The notes below the pieces were generated by a model that was not told where the DNA came from, did no database searches, and saw nothing but the letters and a program-made list of their open reading frames with translations. The translations under genes and the position numbers were made by a program. From NCBI GenBank assembly GCA_003248075.1, contig QJYK01000236.1:1-40736 (forward strand): a DNA stretch of 40,736 nucleotides, read 5' to 3'. Numbering within the stretch: the first letter of the stretch is position 1; every line of letters starts with the position of its first letter. This DNA comes from Gemmatimonadota bacterium (GTDB lineage Bacteria > Gemmatimonadota > Gemmatimonadetes > Longimicrobiales > Gaopeijiaceae). This document shows positions 21,713 to 26,615 of this stretch, one piece after another.

Positions 21713-21750
21713 CCCGGGCGCGGGCAGACCTCCGACAGGACCATGTGAGG

Positions 21751-22968
21751 ATGAGCACGAGCAAGAGGTACGGCGGATACCGATCCTTCTCCTACCTCGA
21801 GGGCGGGACGGACTACGTCCCGTTCGAGCTTTCTGACGAGCTCGAGCGCGTCGAGCCGTACCTCCTCCCGCTGTCCACCGACGAGGAGGCCCGTACGGCC
21901 GCGCTGGTGGAACGCTGCATCTTCGTCAGCCTGCACGAGCATCTGGGGGTGTTCCCCGCGCGAATCGAGGAGACTCCCGAGTACGTTCGGCACGGTCGTA
22001 TGGCCACCGCCTTCGAAGGTCTGTCCGCATCTCACTGGGACTGTGTCTTCGACAACCTCATGGACGGGATCTGCACGATCCACTCGCGTTCCGGCTGGCA
22101 GTGGGACGATGTCCTACACGACCTGGGAATGCGCCTGTGCGATCTCGCGCACCAGGACTTCGTGACGCACTGCCTGCGGGTCGCGGACATCCGGCGGGCC
22201 CACGAGGAGGGGGGGGTGGCGCTCGTCGCTTCCATGGAAGGCGCGGCGATGATCGAGCACGAGGTCGATCGTATCGATCTCCTCCACGGCTTCGGCGTCC
22301 GGGCGCTGGGAATCACCTACTCGGAGTCCAATGCCCTCGGCAACGGCCTCAAGGAAAGGCGAGACGGGGGGCTCACGGCATTCGGTCGCAAGGCCGTGGA
22401 GCGCATGAACAAGGTCGGCATGCTCATCGACTGCTCCCACTGCGGGGACCAGACCACCCTCGATACCATCGAGCACAGCGAGCAACCGATCATCCTGTCC
22501 CATATCGGCGCGCGTGCGCTCTGGGAGTCGAATCGCCTCGCGCCGGACGAGGTGCTCGAGGCCTGCGCGGCCAAAGGTGGCGTCATCGGGATCGAGGCGG
22601 CGCCGCACACGACTCTGACGCGGAACCATCGCACCCACGACCTCGAGGCGTTCATGGAGCACTTCGAGTACATCGTGAAGCTCGTGGGAATCGATCACGT
22701 CGGCTTCGGACCCGATTCGCTCTATGGAGACCACGTCGGCCTGCACCGGTTGTATGCGAGCAACCTGTCCATCAAGGAGTCGCGCGGGGGGGGCGGCCGT
22801 ACCGACCAGGAGTTCACGCCTGTCCCGTACGTGAAGGGGCTGGAGAACCCGACGGAAGGGTCCAGGAACATCGTCCGCTGGCTGGTGAAGCACGGCTATT
22901 CGGACCCGGACATCGAGAAGGCCATGGGAGCCAACGCTGTGCGCCTGCTCGAGCAGGTGTGGGCCTGA
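21751..22968 (+). CDS. Membrane dipeptidase-like M19 metallopeptidase
   Basis: The protein has 405 residues from ATG 21751; the frame is open further upstream but the content there is poor. AGGA at 21737-21740 is the likely ribosome-binding site. M19 signatures are present: SMEGA with bridging Glu163, DCSHCG with His230, LSHIGARALW with His251, and GFGPDSLYG with Asp322. The N-terminal metal pair, normally H-x-D, is here H62-E-H64 (SLHEHLG), an unusual replacement of Asp by His. No signal peptide is seen, so it is probably cytoplasmic. Relatives cleave dipeptides, often with a C-terminal D-residue. Downstream are an exported protein, a tiny membrane protein and a symporter, which suggests it hydrolyses an imported dipeptide or amide. 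Confidence 0.9.
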   Translation: MSTSKRYGGYRSFSYLEGGTDYVPFELSDELERVEPYLLPLSTDEEARTAALVERCIFVSLHEHLGVFPARIEETPEYVRHGRMATAFEGLSASHWDCVFDNLMDGICTIHSRSGWQWDDVLHDLGMRLCDLAHQDFVTHCLRVADIRRAHEEGGVALVASMEGAAMIEHEVDRIDLLHGFGVRALGITYSESNALGNGLKERRDGGLTAFGRKAVERMNKVGMLIDCSHCGDQTTLDTIEHSEQPIILSHIGARALWESNRLAPDEVLEACAAKGGVIGIEAAPHTTLTRNHRTHDLEAFMEHFEYIVKLVGIDHVGFGPDSLYGDHVGLHRLYASNLSIKESRGGGGRTDQEFTPVPYVKGLENPTEGSRNIVRWLVKHGYSDPDIEKAMGANAVRLLEQVWA

Positions 22969-22969
22969 C

Positions 22970-23716
22970 GTGACCAGCGGTCGGCGGGGCAGGGGGACCC
23001 GCCACCATGGCCGTCAGACGGCGGGACACGGGCTTCGCATCGTCGCGTTCGTCGCCCTGGGCGTGCTGGCGGGTCCCCGAGGGGCGGCCTCCCAGGAGGA
23101 GACGATACGAGCCGTGCGGATGCGAGTGGCCGTCTCCGGGACCGACGCTCAGGTGATCCTCGAGGTCGACGTGGACGGCGCGGCCGAGGCCGCCATACTC
23201 CCCGCCACCATCCTCGACTTCGCCTCGGCTCGGCCGGTCGACCTCGCCGTGGGGTCGGAAGGGGCACTCGCAGTGCTCGAGCTCGACCGCGGCGTGGCGC
23301 GAACCGGCAGTCTGAGGGTGGAGCCGGGGCCGACCGACGGGTCGTGGCTCGTGCTCGCGACGTACCGGGTCCGCGACGCGGTCGCGGTGCGGGGGTCGTC
23401 CCTGCGTGCGCACGTGCCCGTGCTGAGCGTAGATCGACCACCCACCGTGGCGGGCCCCGGCTTCTTTCGCGCTGAGCTCCGCATTCCACCGGAATGGGCC
23501 GTGGCCGAAGGGTTCCCGTCGGGGATCCGAGCCACGGATCGCGCCGGCGTCTACGAGGTGGACCTCTCGGTCGTGCCGGCGGTGCTCTCCTTCCGCGGCC
23601 GCCTCGACGGCGCGTGGCGGCCGGGCGTACCCCTCGTGCTGGACCTCCTCGCGGGAGCCCTGCTCGTGATGTTCTCCGTGGTCGGCTTCAGGCACTTGAG
23701 GTCCGTGGCGGCGTGA
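22970..23716 (+). CDS. Exported, C-terminally anchored protein of unknown function
   Basis: The protein has up to 248 residues from GTG 22970, one base after the dipeptidase stop. Residues about 22-42 (LRIVAFVALGVLAGPRGAASQ) form a signal peptide. The body is beta-rich (RMRVAVSGTDAQVILEVDV, SWLVLATYRVRDAVAV, FFRAELRIPPEWAVAEGFPSG) with no motif that I recognise. A hydrophobic segment near 222-240 (VLDLLAGALLVMFSVVGF) should anchor it in the inner membrane with most of the chain outside. It ends in a GTGA overlap with the 32-residue gene, which in turn overlaps the symporter gene. The coupling implies a role with the transporter, perhaps as an external domain or assembly partner. Function unknown. 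Confidence 0.7.
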   Translation: MTSGRRGRGTRHHGRQTAGHGLRIVAFVALGVLAGPRGAASQEETIRAVRMRVAVSGTDAQVILEVDVDGAAEAAILPATILDFASARPVDLAVGSEGALAVLELDRGVARTGSLRVEPGPTDGSWLVLATYRVRDAVAVRGSSLRAHVPVLSVDRPPTVAGPGFFRAELRIPPEWAVAEGFPSGIRATDRAGVYEVDLSVVPAVLSFRGRLDGAWRPGVPLVLDLLAGALLVMFSVVGFRHLRSVAA

Positions 23717-23811
23717 GCGGCCCCGGCTTCGTGTTCTGGGGGCTCTTCGTCGCCTGTGGCGCCCTCATCGTCGGCTACTGGCTCTGGATGCGATGGACGG
23801 AGCGCCCGTGA
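23713..23811 (+). CDS. 32-residue single-span membrane protein, possible symporter accessory subunit
   Basis: GTG at 23713 overlaps the TGA of the upstream gene (GTGA), and this gene's own TGA at 23809 overlaps the preferred GTG start of the symporter at 23808 (again GTGA). The product begins VSGPGFVFWGLFVACGALI and ends VGYWLWMRWTERP. It is one membrane helix of about 20 residues with a basic/aromatic C-terminal end. Very small accessory proteins encoded just before sodium:solute symporters are known in other bacteria and archaea. The double four-base coupling and clean hydrophobicity support a real gene. Homology to those families cannot be shown from sequence this short. Confidence 0.6.
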   Translation: MSGPGFVFWGLFVACGALIVGYWLWMRWTERP

Positions 23812-25232
23812 CCGCGCGCATGCTCGTTTTCGGCGCGTATTTCCTGGTCGTCTTCGCAATCGGCTGGTTCAGCTTGCGCGCCACCCGAGACGAGGCGGAC
23901 TACTGGATCGCAGGGGGGAAGCTCGGGTGGTTCACCGGCGGCGCCACGATGGCCGCCACGCACACGAGCGCGGGCACGTTCATGGGGGTCATCGGCGTCA
24001 TGTACACGGCCGGGTGGTCGTTCGGCTGGGTCTTGATCTCGATTCCGCTCGCCTACTGGTTCGTCGCTGCGGTGCTCGCGCCGCGCTTCACCCGCGTGCG
24101 CGAGCTGACGTTGCCCGCATTCATCGAAACGCGCTACTACAGCAAGGGCGTGCGCGGACTCGCGGCGCTTATCGTGCTCATCGCGACCGTCGTCTACATC
24201 CAGGCGCAGATCGTTGCGGGCGGCTTGATCGCGAACACCGTGTTCGGCATTCCGACGACCTGGGGGATGATCGGCTTCACGGCGATTCTGCTCGCCTACA
24301 CGGTCATCGGCGGCATGATCGCGGTCGTCTACACGGACGCGTTCCAGCTCATGGTGATGTGTCTGGGAGCCGTCTTCGCCGTACCCTTGGCGATCCGGCA
24401 GGTCGACGGCATGGACGGGCTCTTCACGTTGGTGCAGTCGGCACACCCGATGGTCTTCTCGTGGAGCACCATGCCCGCTGCCCTGCTGTTCACGATGGGG
24501 CTTTCGTTCTTCCTCGGTTCCATCGCCACCCCCGAGAAGCTCGTGCGCCTCTACGCGATGAAGGACATGGCCACGATCCGCCGAGGCGTGCTGTTCGCGA
24601 TCGTGATGATCCTGGGCCTCAACCTCATCGTGATGGTCCTCGCCCTGGCGGCGATCGTGCTCTTCCCCGAGCTCCCGACGGGCGACCTGGCGATGCCGCT
24701 CGTCGCGACGGCGGTGCTCCCCGCGACCCTGGGGACGGTCATGCTCGCGGCGATCACCGCAGCGATGATGTCCACGGTCGACTCGCTGCTCATCGTGGCG
24801 GGTTCCGCGCTGTCCGTGGACATCTATCAGAATCTCATGAATCCGCATGTAGAGCCGGGTCGCCGCATGTGGATCGACCGGATCGGCATCCTCGTCGTGG
24901 GCACCGTCCCGGTCGTTCTCCTCCTGGCCGGCGTCGGACAGGGAGAGCTCGTGCAGTTCATCGTGCTGCTTTTCACGGCCCTGATGGCGACCGCCTTCGC
25001 GCTTCCCGTGGTCGGCGGGGTCCTCTGGCGCCGTGCGACCCGCGAGGGCGCGGCGACCTCGATGGTGGGCGGTGTGGTGACTACGTTCCTGTGGGAGATG
25101 TACGGGTCCCCATCCATCGAACCCGTCCTGCCTGGCTTTTTCGTTTCCATCGTCTTGTTCGCCGGCGTGAGCTTGGTCACCCCGGCGCCACCTGAAAGGG
25201 CGCTCGCGCCGTACTTCGGCGAGGGCCCCTGA
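23808..25232 (+). CDS. Sodium:solute symporter (SSS family)
   Basis: The protein has 474 residues from GTG 23808, which overlaps the preceding stop and has GGAG five bases upstream; an in-frame ATG at 23793 is the alternative. It is highly hydrophobic with about 13 predicted membrane spans. SSS family markers are present: an early FAIGWFSLRATRDEADYWIA segment, the Na-site-like TSAGTFMGVIGVMYTAGW, ELTLPAFIETRYYSKGVR, the signature region AYTVIGGMIAVVYTDAFQ, and AAITAAMMSTVDSLLIVAGS. The family imports proline, pantothenate, sugars or other small solutes with sodium; the sequence is closest in feel to PutP/PanF. Neighbours (dipeptidase before, M28 peptidase after) suggest an amino acid or small peptide-derived substrate. 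Confidence 0.95.
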   Translation: MTARMLVFGAYFLVVFAIGWFSLRATRDEADYWIAGGKLGWFTGGATMAATHTSAGTFMGVIGVMYTAGWSFGWVLISIPLAYWFVAAVLAPRFTRVRELTLPAFIETRYYSKGVRGLAALIVLIATVVYIQAQIVAGGLIANTVFGIPTTWGMIGFTAILLAYTVIGGMIAVVYTDAFQLMVMCLGAVFAVPLAIRQVDGMDGLFTLVQSAHPMVFSWSTMPAALLFTMGLSFFLGSIATPEKLVRLYAMKDMATIRRGVLFAIVMILGLNLIVMVLALAAIVLFPELPTGDLAMPLVATAVLPATLGTVMLAAITAAMMSTVDSLLIVAGSALSVDIYQNLMNPHVEPGRRMWIDRIGILVVGTVPVVLLLAGVGQGELVQFIVLLFTALMATAFALPVVGGVLWRRATREGAATSMVGGVVTTFLWEMYGSPSIEPVLPGFFVSIVLFAGVSLVTPAPPERALAPYFGEGP

Positions 25233-25253: not shown

Positions 25254-26615
25254 GTGTCACGCACGATCCGACCCGCCCTGCCCGTCCTCCTGCTCGCCCT
25301 GCTCGCCCCGCCGGTCCGCGCCCAGGAACGGGTCTCGGACTACCGCGACGTGGCGAACCGCATCATCGACGCCGCGACCGCGAGCCACCGGGCCTACGAG
25401 CGGCTCGGCGACCTCGTCGACACGTTCGGACCGCGTCTGTCCGGCTCGGTCGCGCTGGAGCGCGCGATCGACTGGATCCTCCGCGAGATGGAGGCGGACG
25501 GCCTCCAGAACGTGCGGGGCGAGCCGGTCATGGTGCCGCACTGGGTGCGAGGCCAGGAGTCGCTCGAGCTCGTCGTGCCCAGGGCCCGCCGGCTTCCGAT
25601 GCTGGGCCTCGGTGGTAGCATCGGCACGCCTCCGGGCGGGATCCGCGCCGAGGTGCTGGTGGTCAGCACGTTCGACGAGCTGGAGGCTCGCGCCTCGGAG
25701 GCGCGGGGACGCATCGTCCTTTTCGACGCACCCTTCACGAGCTACGGCGAAACCGTCCAGTATCGCTCGCAGGGCGCGATCGCGGCGGCGAAGGCGGGTG
25801 CCGTGGCGAGCCTGATCCGGGCGGTGGCGTCCGGATCGATGCAGTCTCCGCACACGGGCGCGATGAGCTACGAGGACGGCGTGACGCGTATCCCCCACGC
25901 GGCGATCAGTGTGGAGGACGCCATGATGCTCCACCGCATGCAGGAGCGCGGGGAACGCATCGAGGTGCTTCTGCGGATGGAGGCCCGCACCCTGCCGGAC
26001 GCGCCGTCCCGGAACGTCATGGGTGAGATCGTCGGGCACGAGCGGCCGGACGAGGTCGTCGTGCTCGGAGGGCACATCGACTCGTGGGACGTGGGTCAGG
26101 GCGCCATGGACGATGGCGGCGGCGTGGTCGCGGCGTGGGAGGCCGTGCGCCTGTTGAAGGAGCTGGGTCTGCGGCCGCGACGCACCATCCGCGTCGTGGG
26201 GTGGACCAACGAGGAGAACGGGGGTCGCGGTGGCGCGAAGTACGCCGAGGACCACGCCGGCGAGACCCACGTGCTGGCGATCGAATCCGACGGTGGTGTA
26301 TTCAAGCCGCTCGGCTTCGGGTTCACGGGCACGGACCGGGCCTTCGCGATCATGAGCGAGATCGGGCGGTTCCTCGAGCGGGTCGACGCCGGCAGCGTGA
26401 CCCGAGGGGGTGGCGGCGCGGACATCGGCCCCCTCATGAGGACCGGCGTGCCGGGCATGGGCTTGAACGTGGACGGGACGCGCTATTTCTGGTATCACCA
26501 TTCGGATGCGGACACCCTCGACAAGCTCGATCCGGACGAGGTCGCGCTGTGCGTGGCGGCCATGGCGGTGATGGCGTACATCGCTGCGGACCTGCCCGAG
26601 GCGCTGCCGCGCTGA
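25254..26615 (+). CDS. Secreted M28-family aminopeptidase/carboxypeptidase-Q-like
   Basis: The protein has 453 residues from GTG 25254 with GGAG six bases upstream. Residues 1-24 are a signal peptide (LPVLLLALLAPPVRAQ). Unlike the lipoprotein M28 enzyme at 18512, it is freely secreted. The zinc site is complete: H274 (GGHIDSWDVG), D286 (GAMDDGGG), E320/E321 (TNEENGGRGG), D346 (ESDGG) and H416 (YHHSDADT). GGHIDSWDVGQGAMDDGGG is the characteristic segment of plasma glutamate carboxypeptidase (carboxypeptidase Q)-like enzymes. A PA-like insert lies at about 105-240. It should release amino acids from short peptides in the periplasm, which the symporter 21 bases upstream could import. Confidence 0.95.
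   Translation: MSRTIRPALPVLLLALLAPPVRAQERVSDYRDVANRIIDAATASHRAYERLGDLVDTFGPRLSGSVALERAIDWILREMEADGLQNVRGEPVMVPHWVRGQESLELVVPRARRLPMLGLGGSIGTPPGGIRAEVLVVSTFDELEARASEARGRIVLFDAPFTSYGETVQYRSQGAIAAAKAGAVASLIRAVASGSMQSPHTGAMSYEDGVTRIPHAAISVEDAMMLHRMQERGERIEVLLRMEARTLPDAPSRNVMGEIVGHERPDEVVVLGGHIDSWDVGQGAMDDGGGVVAAWEAVRLLKELGLRPRRTIRVVGWTNEENGGRGGAKYAEDHAGETHVLAIESDGGVFKPLGFGFTGTDRAFAIMSEIGRFLERVDAGSVTRGGGGADIGPLMRTGVPGMGLNVDGTRYFWYHHSDADTLDKLDPDEVALCVAAMAVMAYIAADLPEALPR

Follow-up and report, generated by a model that had tools for sequence, protein, structure and literature searches.

The window analysed here is a stretch of 40,736 nucleotides from a Gemmatimonadota bacterium (contig QJYK01000236.1, positions 1 to 40,736). 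It carries a conserved block of genes on the forward strand, in which a frame of 32 codons lies between a gene for an exported protein, here termed EXP, and a gene for a symporter of the SSS family. The features of the block are as follows.

21745-22968, + strand: peptidase of the M19 family (membrane dipeptidase; Pfam PF01244, E 6.6e-68), start codon not settled; first gene of the conserved block
22970-23716, + strand: EXP, exported type I membrane protein of 248 residues, with a signal helix, a predicted beta-sandwich ectodomain and a C-terminal transmembrane helix
23713-23811, + strand: small ORF, single-helix membrane protein of 32 residues, GTG start, GTGA overlaps at both ends
23799-23802, + strand: GGAG, a Shine-Dalgarno-like sequence for the symporter, within the codons for Thr29 and Glu30 of the small protein
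23808-25232, + strand: SSS family symporter, 474 residues from the supported GTG start (Pfam SSF, E 1.9e-62; TIGR00813)
25254-26615, + strand: peptidase of the M28 family, after the symporter (Pfam PF04389, E 9.6e-28), conserved in part of the loci

The product of the small ORF is MSGPGFVFWGLFVACGALIVGYWLWMRWTERP, read from a GTG at 23713 to a TGA stop at 23809-23811. The stop codon of EXP (TGA, 23714-23716) falls within a GTGA common to the end of EXP and the start of the small ORF, and a second GTGA joins the stop of the small ORF to the GTG start of the symporter at 23808, which orthologue comparison favours over an ATG at 23793. The initial annotation had described both overlaps, as well as one clean membrane helix with an aromatic and basic end, and each of these features can be read in the sequence. 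This layout is one that would couple translation of the symporter to that of the small gene. Scans with Rfam and for promoters and terminators yielded nothing useful.

The symporter contains a full-length SSF domain (PF00474, E 1.9e-62, positions 1-406 of 406), and its nearest solved structures are vSGLT, SGLT1 and SGLT2. An AlphaFold model of it was set aside as too poor (pLDDT 51) to support a helix count or docking.

Conservation of the small gene

Among the first 60 relatives surveyed, the same frame was present in the same place wherever there was a close symporter orthologue with readable upstream DNA. A profile of the small protein (A1), built from nine copies, was then run over 395 Gemmatimonadota genomes and gave 23 strong matches (E below 2e-13). 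In a separate search of the same 395, a symporter orthologue at 62-100% identity was found in 23 genomes. These are the identical 23, and the small protein occurs in none of the 372 others (Fisher p = 9e-38, in a test that ignores kinship). Weaker matches to the small-protein model (E 0.004-0.009) were partial and were treated as chance.

The small frame lies directly before the symporter in all 23 genomes, and EXP is found upstream of it by tblastn in 21; the remaining two carry fused forms. With two further genomes (G008 and G011) the set comes to 25 loci, all within one family of Gemmatimonadota, so that the conserved short frame upstream of SSS genes that the initial annotation had proposed to look for does exist in related genomes. 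In 24 of the 25, an ATGA or GTGA joins the stop codon of the small gene to the start of the symporter, and a Shine-Dalgarno-like tetramer stands just 5' of that start in 20. The junction between EXP and the small gene is less constant, with ATGA or GTGA overlaps, short gaps or outright fusion. The sole locus lacking a direct overlap with the symporter (G126, L100/L044) has about 70 extra bases between the small stop and the symporter start, which resemble a partial duplication of the junction. At another locus (L083, G202) a TGA at codon 472 of the symporter, slightly before the C-terminus of the window protein, affects the tail alone.

The usual gene order in Gemmatimonadota is M19 peptidase, EXP, small gene and symporter, followed in some cases by the M28 peptidase (found at L062, L063, L065 and L078). 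An M19 orthologue, 67-85% identical, lies upstream of EXP at most of these loci; at one (G204/L064) it does not adjoin EXP. Elsewhere in the same taxonomic order, one family contains an EXP-like gene (L077, G041, 13-708) that is not directly followed by a symporter gene.

The block is also found in another phylum. Searching named genomes with the symporter identified Jiangella muralis and Ornithinimicrobium sediminis (55-56% identity), and in both a protein of 46-50 residues with the same core is encoded directly upstream of the symporter. The core sequences are AGFVFWGYLAIYIVLTLAYFGWM and AGFIMWGYFLFYALLTAAYLVWM. The Actinomycetota small proteins are 28-34% identical to the window protein, the symporters downstream of them 54-56%, and in J. 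muralis and O. sediminis a homologue of EXP with about 30% identity precedes the small gene. Of 22 genomes from the Jiangella family (Jiangellaceae), 6 contain the block of EXP, small gene and symporter, which is rare elsewhere in the phylum: Jiangella itself was the only positive among 396 sampled Actinomycetota genomes, and Ornithinimicrobium itself the only one among 150 genomes of its own family. A plasmid collection contained no relative of the Jiangella symporter.

An open frame is by itself weak evidence here, as GC-rich DNA keeps the same frame open for 67-329 codons. Stronger indications come from substitution patterns. The check for synonymous-substitution bias proposed in the initial annotation gave an in-frame pN/pS of 0.45 (mean pN 0.227 and pS 0.505 over 20 helix codons), compared with 1.38 and 1.31 when the frame is shifted. 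Variation in the small frame is greatest at third codon positions (p = 0.003; 21 sequences), and mean amino-acid identity among the 21 sequences is 0.60, against 0.455 +/- 0.030 when columns are shuffled, with none of 2000 shuffles as high. These tests are simple counts on related sequences and not a likelihood model. Stops or frameshifts in this frame in relatives with intact flanking genes, which the initial annotation had named as evidence against it, were found in none of 25 Gemmatimonadota and 7 Actinomycetota loci. The small ORF is a real gene, whose protein sequence is under selection. The conservation of its C-terminal Glu-Arg may have a cause at the level of DNA, since these codons contain the Shine-Dalgarno sequence of the symporter at 20 of the 25 loci. 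Residues G10, Y22 and W25 are invariant. No significant helical face was detected among the conserved residues (p = 0.25).

The GTGA and ATGA overlaps, together with the Shine-Dalgarno-like sequence in the last codons, could also be explained if the small ORF were a leader cistron that couples translation to the symporter and whose peptide has no function. This is very unlikely: conservation is seen at the level of amino acids, the motif is kept across phyla, and the helix is retained when it is fused to EXP, as described below.

The exported protein and a natural fusion

EXP belongs to no Pfam or NCBIfam family, and its orthologues next to the symporter are 26-48% identical. An AlphaFold model based on eight sequences (mean pLDDT 79, pTM 0.67) predicts a signal helix, fifteen strands between residues 45 and 211 that form a beta-sandwich, and a C-terminal helix at 219-247. 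Foldseek relates the model to the beta-sandwiches of ribophorin I/Ost1 and of the N-terminal domain of M1 aminopeptidases, with a TM-score of at most 0.45, a resemblance that points to a fold class only. Searches of PDB sequences with the profile of EXP or of the small protein gave no credible match.

In one single-contig genome (G123), EXP and the small protein are fused in one frame of 275 residues, consisting of a signal peptide, the EXP ectodomain, a linker rich in Pro, Ser and Ala, and the small protein at the end. The EXP part matches its profile with a probability of 97.4% (E 1.2e-11) and ends before EXP's own helix; the small-protein part matches with a probability of 97.5% (E 8.8e-12). 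A second genome (G003) carries the same fusion on a contig cut at the 5' end. EXP's own anchor helix is missing from both, so that in the fused forms the ectodomain is held by the small helix and needs no other anchor. When the symporters are placed in a maximum-likelihood tree, the two fused cases group as a single clade (support 97/91), and the Actinomycetota branch, with separate genes, lies outside all Gemmatimonadota. The fusion would therefore most simply have arisen once, from separate genes.

Since EXP and the small protein occur as a single chain, they are tied together. The fusion also bears indirectly on topology: the small protein is fused behind an exported ectodomain and so must have its N-terminus outside and its C-terminus inside, with which its basic C-terminus agrees.

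At three more distant SSS genes (L002 on contig C29 of the source genome, L103 in G347 and L104 in G150), the small ORF is absent and the gene immediately upstream encodes an EXP-like type I protein. In the L002 protein the C-terminal helix bears a weak resemblance to the small protein (E 0.008). The proteins at L103 and L002 share the layout of EXP, with a homology to it that is not significant (probability 4-6%); for L104 the same layout was judged by eye. The combination of EXP and SSS may thus be a wider module, in which the small helix is not universal.

It might be argued from these loci, and from the fact that the sole fusion seen is with EXP, that the small protein has EXP as its sole partner, pairing with or anchoring its ectodomain, whilst the symporter is merely co-expressed. 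Yet the small gene adjoins the symporter at 25 of 25 Gemmatimonadota loci and overlaps it at 24, the overlap with EXP being looser; the co-occurrence is with the SSS subfamily; and EXP already has an anchor helix of its own. An exclusive partnership with EXP is unlikely.

A candidate three-part symporter

The small ORF very probably encodes a real and as yet unnamed subunit of a sodium-driven nutrient importer. Taken as a whole, the findings are best explained if it is the single-helix subunit of a symporter in three parts, comprising the SSS carrier, the small protein and EXP, a reading to which we assign a probability of roughly 0.7. An accessory subunit of the symporter had already been suggested in the initial annotation; the conservation of the small protein with its neighbours supports this, and the fusion to EXP adds to the evidence, while binding to the symporter is something that we infer.

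On this three-part model, the small protein would be an obligate subunit, with its N-terminus in the periplasm and its basic C-terminus in the cytoplasm, and EXP a beta-sandwich protein of the periplasm with its own anchor helix. The small helix would pack on the symporter, as MAP17 does on SGLT1/2, and would hold the EXP ectodomain over the outward face of the carrier. By analogy with GLMP and MFSD1, this placement might stabilise or activate the carrier, and the GTGA coupling would keep the amounts of helix and carrier similar.

Some bacterial transporters are regulated by small single-helix proteins (PMC10710835), and the small protein could instead be a regulatory peptide, an inhibitor or FtsH adaptor like MgtR, MgtS or SgrT, through which the symporter is tuned or degraded. 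A translational unit shared with the target and, in one lineage, a fusion to a large ectodomain would, however, better suit a structural subunit than a regulator that depends on a signal, and a regulatory role is accordingly given a very low probability, slightly below that of a leader cistron.

Because an M19 peptidase gene lies upstream at most of the Gemmatimonadota loci, the likeliest substrate of the proposed three-part symporter is a dipeptide or related amide, probably cleaved by this peptidase after uptake. The assignment is uncertain, since the neighbours in Actinomycetota differ: there the M19 peptidase is replaced, and an amidohydrolase, a protein of the Asp/Glu/hydantoin-racemase family and an M20 hydrolase are found. 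What the neighbours in both phyla share is a link to amide-like amino-acid derivatives. It is conceivable, if rather doubtful, that EXP, held by the 32-residue helix, captures or presents the substrate, making a symporter with a built-in periplasmic receptor; we know of no described counterpart in the SSS family.

Comparison with known small subunits

The initial annotation had recommended comparison with families of small symporter accessory proteins. NF045580, MetS, DUF4212/TIGR03647 and DUF3311 are all unmatched by the small protein. Proteins of NF045580, named symporter small accessory protein, are likewise membrane proteins of about 33 residues linked to symporters. The model, which is 33 positions long with a curated cut-off of 35 bits, scores its control sequences at 75-77 bits, and is unmatched by the window protein at E up to 1 and by five diverse homologues, three from Gemmatimonadota and two from Actinomycetota, at E up to 10. 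MetS (NF033493/NF033494) is also a small subunit, and its gene accompanies that of a sodium-coupled transporter; its partner belongs to the NSS family, unlike the SSF/SSS partner here, and the NF033493 model (cut-off 25 bits) gave no match with the window protein or the five homologues at the same E limits. The library does recognise member-like controls of NF045580 and MetS, at 1e-21 and 8e-13. A divergent member of either family would share the size class of the small protein and its place before a transporter; given the unmatched models, such membership is extremely unlikely.

The DUF4212/TIGR03647 and DUF3311 (Pfam PF11755) proteins are also encoded just upstream of SSS genes as small membrane proteins. 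They are about 70-110 residues long, are matched by their own models and are unrelated in sequence to the small protein, which matches neither family in Pfam or NCBIfam. True members of both occur elsewhere in the source genome: at L011, L007 and L006 (contigs C113 and C256), SSS genes are preceded by genes for a DUF4212/TIGR03647 protein, a DUF3311 protein and a DUF3311-like protein below the cut-off. At L003 (contig C195) a second, unrelated single-helix ORF of 32 residues, MTVYLILLTAFLAALAPGALMLVLERRERDRK, follows an Asp/Glu-racemase-like gene and directly precedes another SSS gene; it has no relative in 98 genomes. Thus several unrelated kinds of small gene precede different SSS genes in this genome alone. 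Deletion of a DUF3311 gene next to MctP had a negligible effect on growth (PMC9100948).

The small protein and EXP both fall outside all Pfam and NCBIfam families, in keeping with the earlier suggestion that the block may be undescribed. No description of the small-protein family was found in the open-access literature searched. Genes of about 30 codons beside transporters escape current family libraries, and the roughly 30 loci in total are too few for coevolution analysis.

Two eukaryotic systems offer parallels, both of which are analogies and not homologies. MAP17 (PDZK1IP1), which acts on SGLT1 and SGLT2, is like the small protein a single helix linked to a sodium symporter of the SSS (SLC5) family. 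Its N-terminus lies outside and its C-terminus inside, the orientation also deduced for the small protein. MAP17 differs in being eukaryotic and in having no beta-sandwich partner, and no sequence relation between the two was found (no credible PDB match and no match to the Pfam MAP17 model). MAP17 is needed for SGLT2 activity, and its helix packs on M13 of SGLT1/2 (PMC9616851, PMC10803289). The match between the window symporter and vSGLT extends no further than about residue 501, and an equivalent of M13 may therefore be lacking.

GLMP, like EXP, is a type I protein with a beta-sandwich, luminal in this case, and one helix; together these protect and stabilise the dipeptide carrier MFSD1 (PMC11252000). 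Its carrier belongs to the MFS, and it is a single protein, unlike EXP with its separate helix. GLMP was not among the Foldseek matches shown for EXP.

The small protein thus represents a new family that works in a way with parallels elsewhere. It offers a case from bacteria in which a single-helix protein is linked to an SSS/SLC5 carrier, and the natural fusion opens the interaction to testing. Debate continues over the way in which MAP17 activates SGLT2 (PMC10803289), a question on which a minimal system from bacteria would be of help.
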